Of a DNA stretch of 64,000 nt, positions 11,211 through 41,733 are shown one piece after another. The DNA is taken from NCBI GenBank assembly GCA_024372625.1, contig CP099605.1:2835001-2899000 (forward strand), in the 5' to 3' direction. This DNA comes from Comamonadaceae bacterium OTU4NAUVB1. GTDB lineage: Bacteria; Pseudomonadota; Gammaproteobacteria; Burkholderiales; Burkholderiaceae_C. The notes below the pieces were generated by a model that was not told where the DNA came from, ran no database searches, and saw nothing but the letters and a program-made list of their open reading frames with translations. Position 1 is the first letter of the stretch. Each line of letters opens with the position of its first letter. The position numbers and the translations under genes are program-made.

Positions 11211-11654
11211 ATGCCCCTGTCCGACTCGCTCCAGATCGCCGCCCCGAATCCCGACGGGTCCATCACGCCGCCGCCCAGCGCGGACGACCTGCGCGAGGCG
11301 CTGGAGGCGCGCAACGAAGCACTCGCGCAGAAGCTCGGCGAACTCGAGGCCATCCTGGCCCGGCCGCTCGACCAGATCCTGGCCGAGCGCGACCGGTTCA
11401 AGGACGCGGCCACCGCCTGGGATTCCTTCGGCGCGATGTGGATGCTGTCGCAGCGGGCGATGAAGCGCGTCGCACTCGACCTCGCCGCGCGGCAGGGCGT
11501 GGGCGAGGAGGAGGTGGTCGCGCGCGCCCTTGATTTCGCCAACGACGTGCTCAACGGCGACGGCGTCGACCTCGGCGGCACCATCGCCGAGCCCCAGTTG
11601 GCGCACATCGCGCGGCACCGGGCGTTCCTGCGCAAGCAGTTCCGGCGCACCTGA
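11211..11654 (+). CDS. Hypothetical cytoplasmic protein with helical coiled-coil segment
   Basis: A 147-residue protein of unknown function. The middle is helical and heptad-like (DDLREALEARNEALAQKLGELEAIL), followed by a Trp/Met-containing helix (AWDSFGAMWMLSQRAMKRVAL) and a basic C terminus. No signal peptide or membrane segment. It starts 26 bases after the preceding secreted protein gene on the same strand, so the two may be cotranscribed. The third-position GC bias agrees with a real gene. No function can be proposed. Confidence 0.65.
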   Translation: MPLSDSLQIAAPNPDGSITPPPSADDLREALEARNEALAQKLGELEAILARPLDQILAERDRFKDAATAWDSFGAMWMLSQRAMKRVALDLAARQGVGEEEVVARALDFANDVLNGDGVDLGGTIAEPQLAHIARHRAFLRKQFRRT

Positions 11655-11784
11655 ACCATCCCGGAGGGGTCGGCGGCGCGAACGTGCCTGAGGGACAATG
11701 TCGTCCCTTCCAGCCTTCCGCCCGCCGCGCCCGACAGCGCCCCGGCGGTCGCGCACCTCGCACATCCCCATTGAGTCCGCCCCG

Positions 11785-13422
11785 ATGTCGACCGACAAAT
11801 TCCTCGAAGAAACCCAGCGCCGCCGCACCTTCGCGATCATCTCCCACCCCGACGCCGGCAAGACCACGCTGACCGAGAAGCTGCTGCTGTTCTCCGGCGC
11901 GATCCAGATCGCCGGTTCGGTCAAGGCGCGCAAGGCGACGCGCCACGCCACGTCCGACTGGATGGAGATCGAGAAGCAGCGCGGCATCTCGGTGGCCTCC
12001 TCGGTGATGCAGATGCTCTATCGCGAGCACGTGATCAACCTGCTCGACACGCCCGGCCACAAGGACTTCTCCGAGGACACCTACCGCGTGCTGACGGCGG
12101 TCGACTCGGCCCTGATGGTGATCGACGCGGCCAACGGCGTGGAAGCGCAGACGCGGCGCCTGATCGAGGTCTGCCGCCAGCGCGACACGCCCATCATCAC
12201 CTTCGTCAACAAGATGGACCGCGAGGTGCGCGAGCCCCTGGACATCCTCGACGAGATCGAGCGCGAGCTGGGCATGCCGTGCGTGCCGATGACCTGGCCG
12301 GTCGGCCAGGGCAAGAGCTTCGGCGGCATCATGAACCTGCGCACCCAGACCATGACGGTGTTCGACTCCGGCAAGGAGCGCCTGCCGCAGGAGTTCGAGA
12401 CCATCCGCCTGGACGACCGCGACGAACTCATCGGGCGCTTCGGCGCCGAGTTCGAGAACGCCGAGCAGAGCATGGAACTCGCCGCCGGCGCCTCCCCCGC
12501 CTGGGACCGCGAGGCTTTCCTGGCGGGCCGGCAGACGCCGGTGTTCTTCGGCTCGGGCGTCAACAACTTCGGCGTGATGGAGGTGCTCGACGCGCTGGTC
12601 GACCTCGCGCCCTCGCCGCAGTCGCGCACCAGCACCACGCTGGTCAACCGCCAGCCGGTGGTGCGGGAGGTGCAGCCGGCGGACAAGGACTTCGCCGGCG
12701 TCGTCTTCAAGGTGCAGGCCAACATGGACCCGGCGCACCGCGACCGCATCGCGTTCGTGCGCATGGCCTCGGGCCGCTACACGCCGGGCATGAAGCTCAA
12801 GGTGCAGCGCACGGCCAAGGAGCTGCGCCCGACCAGCGTCGTGACCTTCATGAGCCAGCGCCGCGAGGCGGTCGAGGAAGCCTTCGCCGGCGACATCGTC
12901 GGCTTCACGACGCACGGCGGCGTGCAGCTCGGCGACACCATCACCGACGGCGCCAACCTGATGTTCACCGGCCTGCCCTTCTTCGCGCCGGAACTCTTCA
13001 TGACCGTCATCCTGAAGAACCCGCTGCGCACCAAGCAGCTCCAGCAGGGCCTGGCGCAACTCGGCGAGGAAGGCGCGATCCAGGTCTTCCGCCCGGAGAT
13101 CGGCGGGCCGATGCTGCTGGGCGCGGTCGGCCAGCTGCAGTTCGAGGTGGTGCAGCACCGCCTGAAGGGCGAGTACGACTGCGACGTGCGGCTCGAGGGC
13201 TGCCAGTACACGGGCGCGCGCTGGATCACCGCCGACACGCCGGCCGAGCTGCGCGAGTTCGTCAACGCCTACCCGGCGCGCATGGCGCTGGACGCGGCCA
13301 ACACGCTGGCCTACCTCTGCACCTCGCCCTACGACGTGCGGCTCGCGCAGGAGCGCTTCCCGAAGATCCACTTCCATCCGCTGCGCGAGCACGCCGGGCT
13401 GTCGCTGCAGAACGCGGGCTGA
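11785..13422 (+). CDS. prfC: Peptide chain release factor 3
   Basis: A 545-residue translational GTPase that recycles RF1/RF2 from the ribosome after peptide release. GTPase motifs are intact: G1 SHPDAGKTTL, G2 region QRGISVASSV, G3 DTPGHKDF, G4 NKMD. The C-terminal domains carry the RF3 features GGPMLLGAVGQLQFEV and the final FPKIHFHPLREHAGLSLQ. The length is a little above that of E. coli RF3. The start at 11785 gives the family N terminus FLEETQRRRTFAIISHPDAGK; the frame is open upstream but without conserved sequence. Confidence 0.97.
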   Translation: MSTDKFLEETQRRRTFAIISHPDAGKTTLTEKLLLFSGAIQIAGSVKARKATRHATSDWMEIEKQRGISVASSVMQMLYREHVINLLDTPGHKDFSEDTYRVLTAVDSALMVIDAANGVEAQTRRLIEVCRQRDTPIITFVNKMDREVREPLDILDEIERELGMPCVPMTWPVGQGKSFGGIMNLRTQTMTVFDSGKERLPQEFETIRLDDRDELIGRFGAEFENAEQSMELAAGASPAWDREAFLAGRQTPVFFGSGVNNFGVMEVLDALVDLAPSPQSRTSTTLVNRQPVVREVQPADKDFAGVVFKVQANMDPAHRDRIAFVRMASGRYTPGMKLKVQRTAKELRPTSVVTFMSQRREAVEEAFAGDIVGFTTHGGVQLGDTITDGANLMFTGLPFFAPELFMTVILKNPLRTKQLQQGLAQLGEEGAIQVFRPEIGGPMLLGAVGQLQFEVVQHRLKGEYDCDVRLEGCQYTGARWITADTPAELREFVNAYPARMALDAANTLAYLCTSPYDVRLAQERFPKIHFHPLREHAGLSLQNAG

Positions 13423-36683: not shown

Positions 36684-36710
36684 TCAAGTCGGCCCGGGAT
36701 GCGCCGACAT
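36684..36710 (+). promoter_or_regulatory. FliA (sigma-28)-like promoter of the EAL-HDOD gene
   Basis: TCAAGTCG, then exactly 11 bases, then GCCGACAT. The flagellar sigma-28 consensus is TAAAGTTT-N11-GCCGATAA; beta- and gammaproteobacterial sites often start TCAAG. The -35 octamer is identical to the one before the PYP gene. The predicted start of transcription lies near 36718, so the ATG at 36709, inside the -10, cannot serve this transcript. Confidence 0.6.
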
Positions 36711-36765
36711 GCAAGGTTCGGCACCCCCCAACGACACTTCCCCGGACGGCACGGAACCTCGAGCG

Positions 36766-38025
36766 ATGAGCCCAGACGCACGCAACGACGACCCGACGGA
36801 CGAACCCGCCCCCAGCGTGCTGCTCGGGCGACAGCCGATCGTGGACCGCTCGGGCGCCCTCGTCGCCTACGAGCTGCTGTTCCGGGCCGGTTTCGCCAAC
36901 ACCGCCACGATCTCGGACGACGGCAAGGCGACCGACCAGGTGATCCTCAACGCGCTCGCGCAGTTCGGCGTGGCCGCCAGCCTGGGCGCGCACCGGGGCT
37001 TCATCAACATCGGGCGCGCCTCGCTGCGCTCGGACACCCTCTACCTGCTCGAACCCGGCCGCTTCACGCTGGAGATCCTGGAGAACGTGGCCATCGACGC
37101 CGAAGTGGCGGCGGGCTGCTGCCGGCTGCGCCAGGCCGGCTTCCAGATCGCGCTGGACGACGTGGTCTCGATCGAGCGCATCCCGGCGTCGGTGCTGGCG
37201 CTGGTGGACGTGGTCAAGATCGACCTGCGCAGCGTCATCGCCGCCGAGCTGCCGCTGATCGTCCGCGCGGCCCACGCCGCCGGCTGCCGGGTGCTGGCCG
37301 AGAAGGTTGAGACGCGGGAGGAATTCCGCCGCATCCTGGACCAGGGCGCCGACCTGTTCCAGGGCTACTTCTTCGCCCGCCCGGAGGTCCTGCGCCAGAG
37401 CCAGGTCAGCGCCTCGCAGCTGGCCCTGCTCCAGCTGAGCAACGTGCTGGCCGGCGATCCGAGCCTGACGGAGCTGCAGCGGGAGGTCAAGCGCAACCCG
37501 GTGCTGCTGGCCCAGCTGATGAAGTTCGCGAACTCGGCCTTCGCCTCGGCACGGCCCGACCTCACGGTGGGCGAGGCGATCGCGCGCATCGGCACCCGGC
37601 AGCTGGCGCGGCTCGCGCAGCTGCTGCTGTTCGCCAGCGACGGCCGCGAGCGCCTGGAGGACGACCCGCTGCTGCAGCTGGTCAGCACGCGCGCGCGCTT
37701 CATGGAACTGATGGCCTGCGCGATCCGCCCGGGCGACGACGCCTTCGCCGACGCCGCCTTCCAGACCGGCGTCTTCTCGCTGATGCACGTGGTGGTGCAG
37801 CAGACCAGCGAGCAGCTGCTCGAGCAGGTCCGCCCGGGCGCGCGCATCCAGGCGGCCATCCTGCGGCTGGACGGCGAACTGGGCGACCTGCTGCGCGTCG
37901 CCCAGCTCATGGAGGATTTCGAGCCCGTGGAGACGGCCGTGCCGATGCGCCGCCACGGTCTCGACCCGGACCGCCTGAACGCGCTGTTCGCGCGCGCGGC
38001 GCTCGAGATCCTGGGCAGCGCCTGA
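36766..38025 (+). CDS. EAL-HDOD signalling protein (YuxH type)
   Basis: A 419-residue cytoplasmic protein with an EAL-type domain (about residues 18-205) joined to an HDOD domain (about 210-400). In the EAL part the key positions read YELLFR, FINI, LEILENV, LDDVV, VKIDLR, EKVET and QGYFFARPE: some metal ligands remain, but the usual DDFGTG loop is DDVVSI, as in YuxH-type proteins that are often enzymatically inactive and act by binding. The HDOD part begins LLQLSNVLAGDPSLTEL and contains ALIGTRQL-like IGTRQLARLAQ. The start at 36766 is chosen because a FliA-like promoter covers an earlier in-frame ATG. Probably links c-di-GMP status to motility. Confidence 0.87.
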   Translation: MSPDARNDDPTDEPAPSVLLGRQPIVDRSGALVAYELLFRAGFANTATISDDGKATDQVILNALAQFGVAASLGAHRGFINIGRASLRSDTLYLLEPGRFTLEILENVAIDAEVAAGCCRLRQAGFQIALDDVVSIERIPASVLALVDVVKIDLRSVIAAELPLIVRAAHAAGCRVLAEKVETREEFRRILDQGADLFQGYFFARPEVLRQSQVSASQLALLQLSNVLAGDPSLTELQREVKRNPVLLAQLMKFANSAFASARPDLTVGEAIARIGTRQLARLAQLLLFASDGRERLEDDPLLQLVSTRARFMELMACAIRPGDDAFADAAFQTGVFSLMHVVVQQTSEQLLEQVRPGARIQAAILRLDGELGDLLRVAQLMEDFEPVETAVPMRRHGLDPDRLNALFARAALEILGSA

Positions 38026-38043
38026 GGCGGTGCGACAAAGGGG

Positions 38044-38070
38044 TCAAGTCGATGCGCCATCGGCCGATAC
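38044..38070 (+). promoter_or_regulatory. FliA (sigma-28)-like promoter of the PYP gene cluster
   Basis: TCAAGTCG, 11 bases, GCCGATAC: seven of eight -10 positions match the flagellar sigma-28 consensus and the spacer is exact. It lies about 112 bases before the PYP start. Together with the identical -35 octamer upstream of the EAL-HDOD gene this argues against chance. Confidence 0.65.
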
Positions 38071-38181
38071 ACAGTCCAGAATGACCGTGAAACCCCAGGG
38101 TGCGCCGCATCGTGCGATCGTGCGCGGGACGCCGTCCGGCGCTCGGCGACCCGCCGCACCCTTCCGACAAAGGTACCTTCC

Positions 38182-38574
38182 ATGACCGAGACCCCGGCAC
38201 CGGCCTTCGACACGCCCCGCCTCGTCGAGCGGCTCGACGCCCTGCCCGAGACCGCGCTCGACGACCTCGACTTCGGCGTCATCGGCTTCGACGCCGCCAA
38301 CGTCGTGCGCCGCTACAACGCCTACGAATCCAGGGCCGCCGGCCTGTCGTCCGCGCGCGTGCTCGGCCACGACCTGTTCACGGCCGTCGCGCCCTGCATG
38401 AACAACTACCTCGTGGCCCAGCGCTTCGAGGACGCGGCGGCCGAGGGCAGCGAACTCGACGCCACCATCGACTACGTGCTCACCCTGCGCATGCGCCCGG
38501 TGAAGGTGCGCCTGCGGCTGCTGGCCGCGCCGGCGGCCGACCACCGCTACGTGCTCGTCCAGCGCTCGCTGTGA
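38182..38574 (+). CDS. pyp: Photoactive yellow protein (PYP) homologue
   Basis: A 130-residue single PAS-domain protein that aligns end to end with the blue-light sensor PYP of Halorhodospira. Shared landmarks: LDFGVIGFD near the start, RYNAYE with the chromophore-pocket Tyr45 and Glu49 (Tyr42 and Glu46 in PYP), VAPC with Cys72 (the p-coumaroyl attachment Cys69), and RMRPVKVRL (the Met100 region QMTPTKVKV). The pocket differs at PYP positions 50 and 52, where Ala and Leu replace Thr and Arg. It is followed closely by a diguanylate cyclase and a phosphodiesterase gene, and preceded by a FliA-like promoter. Genes for making the chromophore (tyrosine ammonia-lyase, coumarate ligase) are not in the window, so light sensing is inferred. 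Confidence 0.88.
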   Translation: MTETPAPAFDTPRLVERLDALPETALDDLDFGVIGFDAANVVRRYNAYESRAAGLSSARVLGHDLFTAVAPCMNNYLVAQRFEDAAAEGSELDATIDYVLTLRMRPVKVRLRLLAAPAADHRYVLVQRSL

Positions 38575-38585
38575 GCGCCACCGTG

Positions 38586-39920
38586 ATGACGCAGGCCGAG
38601 CTGGACGACTACGAGGCGCTGCTGCAGTTCCTCTACATCGCGCCCATCGGGCTGGCCCAGATCCGCGCCGACGGCGAGATCGTGATGGTCAATCCGCTGT
38701 GCGCCCAGTTGCTGATGCCGCTGTCGCGCGACGGCGACCTCTCCAACCTGTTCGTCGCGCTGGAATCGGTGGCGCCCGACCTGCACCACCGCACCGGCGG
38801 CTTCGGCGCGCCCAGCGGCATGGTGTGCGACGCCATGCACCTGCACGTGGACGCCGGGCGCGGCGGCCGCCCGGACACGCAGGTGCTGTCGCTGAGCCTG
38901 CTCAAGCTCGACGAGGAGCGCTTCATGGCCGTGCTCGGGGACGTGACCCGGACGGTGCGCCAGGAGCGCGAGCTGCGCCAGAGCCAGGCCTGGATCCACA
39001 CCCTGGTCACGGGGCTGGTCGACTACGCCCTGGTGTCGCTCGACGAGCACGGCCGCTGCCAGGACTGGAACCCCGGCATCGAGCGCGTGACCGGCTTCGG
39101 GCAGGCCGACGTGCTGGGCGCCAACTACGCGATCTTCCACCCCGCCTCCGACATCCAGCCCGAGGCGCGCGCGGCCGACCGCCTGCGCGAGGCCGACCAC
39201 GCCGGCTGGAGCCTGGACGAAGGCTGGCGCCAGCGCGCCGACGGGACGCGCTACTGGGGCAGCTGCCTGGTCGTGCCGGTGCACGAGCCCGGCCACCCGC
39301 CGGCCGGACCGCGCGGCTACAACCTGATCCTGCGCGACATCTCCGATCGCCGCGAGGCCACCGACGCGATGCGCCGCTCGCTCTGGTGCGACCACCTCAC
39401 CGGGGTGTCGAACCGGCGCGTGCTGTTCGAGACCGCCGACGCCGAAATCCAGCGCTGGCACCGCGTGCCGCGCCCGCTGTCGGTGGTGATGATCGACGCC
39501 GACCACTTCAAGCGCATCAACGACCACCACGGCCACGCCGCCGGCGACGCCGTGCTGCGCCACCTGGCCACCGCCATGGTCGCCAGCTTCGGCCTGAACG
39601 ACACCGTCGCCCGCCTGGGCGGCGAGGAATTCGTCGCCCTGCTGCCGGGCACCACCGGCGAGGCCGCCGTCGCCGCGGCCGAACGCCTGTGCCGGGCGAT
39701 CGAGGCCCAGCCCGTGCGGGTGGGCGAGCACGTGATCCACTACACCGTCAGCGCCGGCGTCGCCATCATGGAAGCGGACCTGGCCAACGTCGACGGGCTG
39801 CTGCAGCGCGCCGACACGGCCATGTACGCCGCCAAGGCGCGCGGGCGCAACCGCGTCGCGCGGTGGGAACCCGGGCTGAGCGAGGCGAGGCGTCCCGGCG
39901 CGCGTCCCGGTGGCGCCTGA
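38586..39920 (+). CDS. PAS-PAS-GGDEF diguanylate cyclase
   Basis: A 444-residue cytoplasmic protein predicted to make c-di-GMP. An N-terminal PAS-like domain (about 8-115, YEALLQFLYIAPIGLAQI) is followed by a second PAS (about 135-245, VDYALVSLDEHGRCQDW with a DISDRR ending) and a GGDEF domain (about 265-430). The active site reads RLGGEEF, so it should be catalytic. The position of the inhibitory I-site (RxxD) reads GLND, so product inhibition through it is unlikely. The ATG at 38586 is chosen because the aligned paralogue next door starts at the matching point; a GTG at 38571 overlapping the pyp stop is possible. It is almost surely cotranscribed with pyp. Confidence 0.92.
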   Translation: MTQAELDDYEALLQFLYIAPIGLAQIRADGEIVMVNPLCAQLLMPLSRDGDLSNLFVALESVAPDLHHRTGGFGAPSGMVCDAMHLHVDAGRGGRPDTQVLSLSLLKLDEERFMAVLGDVTRTVRQERELRQSQAWIHTLVTGLVDYALVSLDEHGRCQDWNPGIERVTGFGQADVLGANYAIFHPASDIQPEARAADRLREADHAGWSLDEGWRQRADGTRYWGSCLVVPVHEPGHPPAGPRGYNLILRDISDRREATDAMRRSLWCDHLTGVSNRRVLFETADAEIQRWHRVPRPLSVVMIDADHFKRINDHHGHAAGDAVLRHLATAMVASFGLNDTVARLGGEEFVALLPGTTGEAAVAAAERLCRAIEAQPVRVGEHVIHYTVSAGVAIMEADLANVDGLLQRADTAMYAAKARGRNRVARWEPGLSEARRPGARPGGA

Positions 39921-39945
39921 TTCCCCGGCCCGCCCGCCCGCCGTC

Positions 39946-41733
39946 ATGTCCGAAGGAACCTCCACCGCGTACGAGGCCCTGGTCCAGTTCCTCTACCGCG
40001 CCCCGATCGGTCTGGTGCAGACCTCGCTCGCGGGCGACATCGCCATGATCAACCCGATGGCGGCGCAGCTGCTGATGCCGCTGGCCGTGGACGGCGCGCT
40101 GTTCAATCTGTTCGACGTGCTGGCGCCGGTCGCGCCGCAGCTGCGGGACCTGACGCGGCGCCCCGACGAGGACGGCGGCATGATCTGCGACGCGCTGCAC
40201 CTGGCGATGCCTCCCGCCGCGCGCGGCGGCGCCGCGCCCCGCACGCTGGCGCTGCAGCTGCTGCGGCTGGACGACGCGACCCTCATGGCCGCCCTGAGCG
40301 ACGCCACCGCCGCCGTGCAGCACGAGCAGCAGCGCCTGAGCGCCCGCGTGCACGCGGCCACCCGCATCGACGGCCTGACCACCCTGCCCAACCGCCTGGC
40401 GCTGCTCGAGGCCATCGACGGCGCGCTGGAACGCCGGGCACACGACCCCGGCGCGCGCTGGGCCGTGCTGCTGGTCAACGCCGACCGCTTCGAGCGCATC
40501 AACGTCACGCGCGGCCCGGCCGCCGGCGACGCCGTGCTGCAGGGCATGGCCGGTCGCCTCCGGGCGATCGCCGCCGGCATGGCGGGTGCCCTGGCGGCGC
40601 GCTTCGGCAGCGACGAATTCGCCCTGCTGGTGCGCCTGGACGAGCTTGGCGGGTCCGTCGCGGACGACGACCTCGCCGCCTGCGAGGCGCTGGCCCGCCG
40701 GCTGGTCGAGGCCCTGGGCGTGCCCCACGTCGTCGGGCGGGTCGCCCCGGACGGCGACGACGGCGCCGAGGCCGGCGTGCACGCCAGCGCGAGCGTCGGC
40801 GTGGTGCGCATCGGTGCCTCGCACGGCCATGCCATGGCCGTGATGCAGGACGCCGGCCTCGCGCTGCGCGAGGCCAAGCGCCTGGGCGGCGCGCGTCACG
40901 GCGTGTTCACCGCCGAGTTGCGCGCCCGGGCCCGCCAGCGCGGCAGCCTGGAGGCCGACCTGCGCCGCGCCCTGGACGACTCCCAGCTGTTCGTCGTCTA
41001 CCAGCCGATCGTCTCGCTGGCCGACGACACGGTCGCGGGCATGGAGGCGCTGGTGCGCTGGCGCCATCCGCAACTCGGCATCGTGCCTCCGGACCGGTTC
41101 ATCGGCATCGCCGAGGAGACCGGGCTGATCGTGGTGCTGGGCGAATGGGTGCTGCGCCAGGCCTGCGACCGGCTCGCCGCCTGGCAGCGCGGCCTGGGGC
41201 CGCTGGCGCCGCGCTCGATGTCGGTCAACCTCTCGCGCGCCCAGGTCCTGGAACCCTCGATCGTCGGCACCGTGGCGCGCGCGCTGGCCGCGAGCCGGCT
41301 GGACGCGGGCGCGCTGCAGCTGGAGGTCACCGAGAGCCTGGCGGCGCAGGACGCCATCGTCCAGCAGCGCCTGGGCGACCTCAAGGCGCTGGGCCTGACC
41401 CTGGCGCTCGACGACTTCGGCACCGGCTACTCGTCGCTCGCGAGCCTGCACCTGCTGCCGGTGGACGTGGTGAAGATCGACCGCTCCTTCGTGAGCCAGT
41501 CGGTCACCAGCGCGCACCACCGGGTGCTGATCGAGGCGGTCGTGAAGGTCGCGCGCAGCCTGGGCATGACCACCGTGGCAGAGGGCGTGGAGACCGCCGA
41601 GCAGGCCGGGCTGCTCGCCACGCTCGACTGCGACAAGTCCCAGGGCTATTTCTACGCCCGGCCGCTGCCGGCGGAAGAGGCCACGGCGTGGCTGCGGGCG
41701 CGGGCGGACCGGACGATGCGCCGGGCGGCCTGA
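39946..41733 (+). CDS. PAS-GGDEF-EAL protein, probable c-di-GMP phosphodiesterase
   Basis: A 595-residue protein. The N-terminal domain (about 8-115, YEALVQFLYRAPIGLVQT, INPMAAQLLMPL) is a clear paralogue of that in the preceding cyclase. The GGDEF domain (about 140-315) has a GSDEF active site, so cyclase activity is doubtful and it may act as a GTP-binding regulator. The EAL domain (about 335-585) is complete: EALVRWRHP, NLSR, EVTES, DDFGTGYSS, KIDRSF, EGVET, QGYFYARPLP, so it should hydrolyse c-di-GMP. It starts 25 bases after the cyclase stop. Thus the operon encodes a PYP, a synthase and a hydrolase together. Converges on the thioesterase gene. Confidence 0.93.
   Translation: MSEGTSTAYEALVQFLYRAPIGLVQTSLAGDIAMINPMAAQLLMPLAVDGALFNLFDVLAPVAPQLRDLTRRPDEDGGMICDALHLAMPPAARGGAAPRTLALQLLRLDDATLMAALSDATAAVQHEQQRLSARVHAATRIDGLTTLPNRLALLEAIDGALERRAHDPGARWAVLLVNADRFERINVTRGPAAGDAVLQGMAGRLRAIAAGMAGALAARFGSDEFALLVRLDELGGSVADDDLAACEALARRLVEALGVPHVVGRVAPDGDDGAEAGVHASASVGVVRIGASHGHAMAVMQDAGLALREAKRLGGARHGVFTAELRARARQRGSLEADLRRALDDSQLFVVYQPIVSLADDTVAGMEALVRWRHPQLGIVPPDRFIGIAEETGLIVVLGEWVLRQACDRLAAWQRGLGPLAPRSMSVNLSRAQVLEPSIVGTVARALAASRLDAGALQLEVTESLAAQDAIVQQRLGDLKALGLTLALDDFGTGYSSLASLHLLPVDVVKIDRSFVSQSVTSAHHRVLIEAVVKVARSLGMTTVAEGVETAEQAGLLATLDCDKSQGYFYARPLPAEEATAWLRARADRTMRRAA

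Follow-up and report, generated by a model that had tools for sequence, protein, structure and literature searches.

A photoactive yellow protein operon of a Comamonadaceae bacterium and a shared N-terminal enzyme domain as its candidate light-signal receiver

Within a 64,000-nucleotide stretch of the genome of Comamonadaceae bacterium OTU4NAUVB1 (contig CP099605.1, positions 2,835,001 to 2,899,000; hereafter the window), four co-directional genes between positions 36,684 and 41,733 encode an EAL-HDOD protein, a photoactive yellow protein (PYP), a PAS-PAS-GGDEF protein and a PAS-GGDEF-EAL protein. The two enzymes that follow PYP open with the same domain of about 120 residues, here named NPAS. 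With moderate confidence, we favor a reading in which PYP, the cyclase and the phosphodiesterase form a three-gene module, and PYP would dock in trans on NPAS to gate both the synthesis and the breakdown of cyclic dimeric GMP (c-di-GMP). On a broader proposal our judgment is evenly balanced: NPAS may be a dedicated PYP-receiver family, nearly always accompanied by a clade C PYP, that serves as a socket to cyclases, phosphodiesterases or histidine kinases; under a flagellar-class promoter, a single PYP would then control both the formation and the degradation of c-di-GMP. The features of the module are as follows.

38182..38574, plus strand: stand-alone PYP of 130 residues with Y45, E49 and C72, assigned by homology and alignment
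38586..39920, plus strand: NPAS-PAS-GGDEF diguanylate cyclase, start ATG 38586, GGEEF active site
38586..38960, plus strand: NPAS domain of the cyclase (residues 1-125), the proposed PYP receiver
38970..39359, plus strand: second PAS domain (PAS2) of the cyclase, from Pfam
39946..41733, plus strand: NPAS-GGDEF-EAL phosphodiesterase, start ATG 39946, EAL motifs intact, GGDEF motif reading GSDEF
39946..40290, plus strand: phosphodiesterase NPAS domain (residues 1-115), with 48% identity to the cyclase copy

The four genes, their shared direction and the gaps of 11 bases (PYP to cyclase) and 25 bases (cyclase to phosphodiesterase) given in the initial annotation were borne out by the open reading frames and by family matches, with an alternative cyclase start at GTG 38571 that overlaps the PYP stop. 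In Pfam searches the cyclase matched GGDEF (149.7 bits) and a single PAS domain, and the phosphodiesterase matched GGDEF (78.5 bits) and EAL (242.1 bits); the first PAS domain of each enzyme had no Pfam match. The genome is 4.66 Mb in size and the assembly is 98.8% complete.

To place the operon among its relatives, 18 close PYPs were used to scan species genomes, which yielded 268 relatives; the best 80 loci were analysed, and the domains of the window were sought in them by tblastn. Some of these loci come from metagenome bins that may be misnamed (e.g., L035 and L086). The next same-strand gene after PYP starts with NPAS, a domain resembling cyclase residues 1-125, in 79 of the 80 loci, the weakest of these matches being 53 bits (L082); in the only exception, L067, the contig ends 161 bases after PYP. 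As projected from the alignments, the gap between PYP and the NPAS gene runs from -4 to 77 bases in 78 of the 79 loci and is 261 bases in L070. The first output gene after PYP is of the NPAS-PAS type in 68 loci, NPAS-GGDEF-EAL in nine and NPAS-HisKA-HATPase in two (L071 and L086), and a histidine kinase is the second NPAS gene in L009 and L060. Among the 68 NPAS-PAS genes, 64 carry GGDEF, one is cut by the contig end (L007), two lack GGDEF (L052 and L057) and one is fused to an NPAS-GGDEF-EAL gene (L080). Both NPAS-PAS and NPAS-GGDEF-EAL genes are present in 58 of the 80 loci (about 4 kb apart in L063), and 19 hold a single NPAS gene, partly owing to contig ends. The proposed conservation of gene order thus holds for PYP, cyclase and phosphodiesterase, but not for the EAL-HDOD gene, to which we return below.

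The association of the two families was also seen across genomes. Among 399 Burkholderiales genomes, in which at most ten first-look candidates were scored per genome, PYP was found in 12, NPAS in 11 and both in 11 (Fisher p about 1e-20, relatedness uncorrected). The PYP-positive genome without NPAS, G161, carries four diverged PYP matches; among them lies a coumarate ligase homolog (L185) that, at 177 bits, misses the TIGR02372 cut-off, with a BLUF gene nearby. When 37 genomes of the same genus were tested for both, the same five were positive for PYP and NPAS, and three further same-genus genomes with NPAS also carry PYP just upstream. In a phylum-wide sample of 398 genomes, NPAS occurred in only two, both PYP-bearing; two more genomes lacked NPAS and showed weaker PYP matches within frames 900-910 residues long.

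As a family, NPAS is poorly covered by existing models: at most two of 78 members matched Pfam (one PAS and one PAS_4, best E-value about 3e-4), none of the 78 matched NCBIfam, and a profile search of solved-structure sequences found no NPAS. An AlphaFold2 model of the cyclase NPAS has a long N-terminal helix followed by a PAS fold (predicted local distance difference test score 86.8, predicted template modeling score (pTM) 0.75). Foldseek searches with this model return PAS domains, PYP among them, and the best matches include NifL, DosP and FixL, all known flavin or haem PAS proteins. The PAS label first given to the enzyme N-termini therefore agrees with the fold of the cyclase model, but it missed that the domain is common to both enzymes and peculiar to PYP operons. 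The stretch YEALxQFLYxAPIGL at the start of NPAS is largely common to the cyclase, phosphodiesterase and kinase versions, and would be the first candidate place for docking. A protein search with the kinase-version NPAS (lengths 0.55-1.75 times the query) gave, among the 120 matches listed of 182 in all, histidine kinases, PAS-GGDEF proteins and short NPAS-PAS proteins.

The output enzymes were then checked for their catalytic motifs. A length limit on the rows left 65 cyclases and 64 phosphodiesterases, window included; both window enzymes and nearly all of the relatives examined have these motifs intact. The GG[DE]EF motif is present in 64 of the 65 cyclase rows, including that of the window, and EALVRW and DDFGTG are present in all 64 phosphodiesterase rows; further EAL catalytic motifs are intact in the window. 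At the position of the inhibitory site, the window cyclase reads GLND where many relatives have RxxD, and because this site is absent the enzyme may escape product inhibition. In another locus, L088 (positions 11257-13043; G035), the phosphodiesterase is apparently split into two overlapping frames.

The sensor itself is a member of the PYP family. It matches the solved PYP domain of Ppr (1mzu) with 69.5 bits and the PYP entries 1otd and 1gsv, presumably both from H. halophila, with 54.3 and 51.4 bits. Its score against NCBIfam TIGR02373 (80.9 bits) falls under the equivalog cut-off of 143; this model does not define the family, because it covers only about 20% of PYP homologs according to the parts covered of Xing et al. 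2022 (PMC9664959). Residues Y45, E49 and C72 correspond to the chromophore residues Y42, E46 and C69 of H. halophila PYP, which are kept in 84 of 84 aligned PYPs (83 loci plus the window), so that the pocket needed to bind p-coumarate is predicted to be intact throughout. By alignment, the window PYP also has the clade C signature, in which Phe92 and Phe96 are lost and Met100 is kept: it has T, L and M at these positions, residues shared by 73, 82 and 84 of the 84 sequences, respectively. The window genome encodes a second PYP as well, with a histidine kinase gene upstream on the same strand.

Genes for chromophore supply were found beside part of the family. By tblastn, 28 of the 80 PYPs have a homolog of the PYP-type coumarate ligase in their vicinity, and four have an aromatic ammonia-lyase there. 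Of four ligases compared with NCBIfam TIGR02372, those of L018 and L054 score above the cut-off and those of L017 and L077 just below it. The lyases of L017, L018 and L077 are read as tyrosine/phenylalanine type because they score under the NCBIfam HutH cut-off. The gene order in L077 is lyase, ligase, PYP and NPAS cyclase, and therefore ties an NPAS module to chromophore supply. L017, L018 and L054 each have a second, diverged PYP close to the NPAS module and a coumarate ligase homolog, and L017 and L018 have an ammonia-lyase as well.

Upstream of the module, two promoter-like boxes and the fourth gene complete the region.

36684..36710, plus strand: sigma28 (FliA)-like box TCAAGTCG-N11-GCCGACAT before EAL-HDOD, one mismatch to TCAAGT-N13-GCCGATA
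36766..38025, plus strand: EAL-HDOD protein, given here from an in-frame ATG in a frame that is already open at TTG 36649; a neighbor outside the conserved module
38044..38070, plus strand: sigma28 (FliA)-like box TCAAGTCG-N11-GCCGATAC before PYP, no mismatches to TCAAGT-N13-GCCGATA

The window genome encodes FliA (272 bits), flagellin and FlgM (43.1 bits), and flgM is preceded by a box of the same form as those in the window. The strict pattern TCAAGT-N13-GCCGA occurs at five sites in the genome, versus three in a reversed-pattern control, and the five sites precede a pilin-like gene, an H-NOX gene, flgM, EAL-HDOD and PYP. At the second of these, an H-NOX gene followed by a PAS-GGDEF-EAL gene stands behind an exact sigma28-like box (G000:C1:417647; L092:2148-4631), an arrangement that parallels the PYP module; elsewhere, the pilin-like gene and a HAMP-GGDEF-EAL gene stand behind the top-scoring sigma28-like box seen (13.5; G000:C1:15413; L091:1914-5094). 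Among the related loci, boxes scoring at least 10.5 precede PYP in 15 of 80 (16 of 84 with four extra loci), as compared to 0.4% of shuffles and one of 302 other upstream regions, many of which are probably inside coding DNA. The weights behind these scores were set by hand after both window boxes had been viewed, using the E. coli FliA consensus, and the further loci that were promoter-scored, mostly from the same genomes, are uncounted. Sigma28 control is a feature of only part of the group, since none of 43 Oxalobacteraceae loci and 15 of the 37 others have the box (families as in the records). Membership of the window module in a FliA regulon, as first claimed, is hence plausible for the window and for those 15 relatives, but the claim does not extend to Oxalobacteraceae. 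No paper joining "photoactive yellow protein" with "FliA" appeared in the literature searched.

The EAL-HDOD protein (EAL 69.9 bits, HDOD 34.0 bits in Pfam) had originally been counted as part of the light-sensing module. That all four genes form one module, with EAL-HDOD as an extra light-controlled part, would fit their common direction and their similar promoter boxes, but is most improbable: no HDOD match was obtained by tblastn in any of the 80 related loci, 61 of which hold at least 9 kb upstream of PYP, and the gene has a box of its own, with that of PYP beginning 18 bases past its stop. EAL-HDOD was rejected as a module component for want of any HDOD match across the loci, and would instead be a separate neighbor, possibly within the same sigma28 regulon as PYP.

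Taken as a mechanism, the three-gene module would work as follows. In the window genome it is probably transcribed from the sigma28 promoter alongside late flagellar genes. PYP with bound p-coumarate would absorb blue light and change shape, behavior that is established for the PYP family and for which the pocket residues are the evidence here. The activated sensor would then dock in trans on the NPAS domain at the start of both enzymes, such that a single sensor would gate c-di-GMP synthesis and breakdown alike, and the observed joining of NPAS to histidine kinases in some related operons suggests that it may be a socket for different outputs. Binding of PYP to NPAS, light control, the direction of the effect and the outcome for motility are all inferred.

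Several observations weigh against this scheme. The 80 loci, the best of 268, had been selected with motifs from close clade C PYPs. Genome G200 (68% complete) has a diverged NPAS-PAS-GGDEF gene at L183:6209-7690 with no PYP within the 16 kb fetched, and the second PYP of the window genome, 75% identical and on another contig (L087:9128-9514, minus strand), has no NPAS neighbor. Covariation does not single out NPAS, the partial r from distance matrices of 67 operons being 0.31 for PYP with NPAS versus 0.30 for PYP with PAS2. An AlphaFold2 model of a PYP-NPAS pseudo-fusion, from an alignment of 14 read-through PYP-NPAS rows, 17 PYP-only rows and 20 NPAS-only rows, reached a pTM of 0.58 with no defined pose and had no control model. 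On the promoter side, the flagellin gene is preceded by only a weak candidate box (10.3, spacing 12), and at two mismatches the short promoter motif occurs 73 times in the genome versus 86 in the control. This genome-wide count alone proves nothing, and the case for sigma28 would instead be made by the downstream genes and by conservation of the box before PYP. Finally, the chromophore pathway calls for a tyrosine ammonia-lyase, and the sole PF00221 lyase gene found in the window genome is of HutH type (equivalog 636 bits over cut-off). Nor was a convincing PYP-type coumarate ligase found by tblastn in the two regions searched, the window and 19 kb surrounding the second PYP; in the window an acyl-CoA synthetase gene matched weakly, at 45-48 bits, and the surroundings of the second PYP gave no match.

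These points lend themselves to other explanations. NPAS could be an ordinary PAS dimerization domain that pairs the enzymes with themselves or each other and merely travels with PYP, which would act elsewhere, for instance on PAS2. A plain operon partner would co-occur with PYP too, the fold resembles generic PAS domains, neighboring enzymes carry homologous copies and covariation does not tell NPAS from PAS2, so that this account is a serious if doubtful contender. Yet 19 of the 80 loci show one NPAS gene only, some through contig ends, and in 11 of the 80 the NPAS protein that follows PYP has no PAS2 match (nine NPAS-GGDEF-EAL and two NPAS-kinase). NPAS was singled out as the receiver because it is the only part common to all three output types seen and because it seldom occurs in other contexts within the genomes searched. 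The chromophore gap raises a different prospect: PYP in this strain, short of chromophore, might not function as a photoreceptor, leaving an operon that is either a relic or a light-independent signaling unit. While the HutH-like lyase and the ligase searches speak for it, we regard it as unlikely, given that the pocket residues are intact, two PYP copies are retained, cyclase and phosphodiesterase both keep their catalytic motifs and 28 of 80 relatives have a ligase homolog close to PYP. Because the only lyase is of HutH type, p-coumarate in the window strain would come from outside or by another route; soil bacteria may import it, and uptake is likewise suggested in the parts covered of PMC12826048. 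It is also quite unlikely that NPAS senses a second cue, such as a small ligand or redox state, with the module integrating light and that cue and PYP linked to NPAS functionally, through no direct contact. PAS folds commonly bind ligands, and NifL, DosP and FixL are among the top fold matches, but near confinement to PYP genomes among those searched is unexpected of a general cue sensor. Docking of PYP on NPAS thus stays the reading we prefer.

The bare association of PYP with GGDEF and EAL proteins is already published and not new, and the description of this light-input pathway as unusual in the initial annotation was overstated. In the parts covered of the two main accounts, Xing et al. 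2022 (PMC9664959) find clade C PYPs often adjoining GGDEF genes, with none of these PYPs yet thoroughly characterized, and Dohmen et al. 2025 (PMC12826048) describe 113 pyp operons, with GGDEF in 29, EAL in 22, coumarate ligase in 32% and tyrosine ammonia-lyase in 5%. The published clade C PYPs of Burkholderiales resemble that of the window in being stand-alone, in having Y42, E46, C69 and Met100 with Phe92 and Phe96 lost, in adjoining cyclase or phosphodiesterase genes and in having coumarate ligase close by in about a third; no shared enzyme domain, joining to kinases or sigma28 promoter is described in those parts. An NPAS-like shared domain was not described in the literature searched, although it may be implicit in the supplementary data of PMC9664959 and PMC12826048. 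The window operon would thus be of the published PYP/c-di-GMP kind with a candidate receiver domain, NPAS, added. The PYP of Idiomarina loihiensis is likewise stand-alone and is reported to lower biofilm formation in blue light, putatively by binding an adjacent GGDEF protein (PMC9664959 and PMC12826048, parts covered), but it belongs to clade A. The Ppd/Ppr fusions (PYP-phytochrome-GGDEF-EAL or -histidine kinase) couple PYP to the same output classes, but there PYP is fused in cis with phytochrome, unlike the separate protein of the window. H-NOX operons with cyclase, phosphodiesterase or kinase partners offer a further parallel. As in the scheme proposed here, H-NOX is a stand-alone sensor acting via downstream signaling partners (PMC10746521, part covered), but it is a haem nitric-oxide sensor, and the H-NOX partner of the window genome gave no NPAS match in a genome search.

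PYP is among the best-studied photoreceptors. Its signaling partner or downstream chain is still called unknown in the parts covered of PMC13250908, PMC5812497 and PMC9664959. With NPAS beside PYP in every informative locus of the sample and joined to three output types, the question of the partner becomes a simple binding test. If the reading is true, the module would provide a small, naturally occurring blue-light switch for kinases as well as for c-di-GMP, and for part of the order sigma28 control would group light input with the late flagellar genes. The signal c-di-GMP sets whether a cell swims or settles, and NPAS may be the long-sought docking partner through which PYP reaches it.

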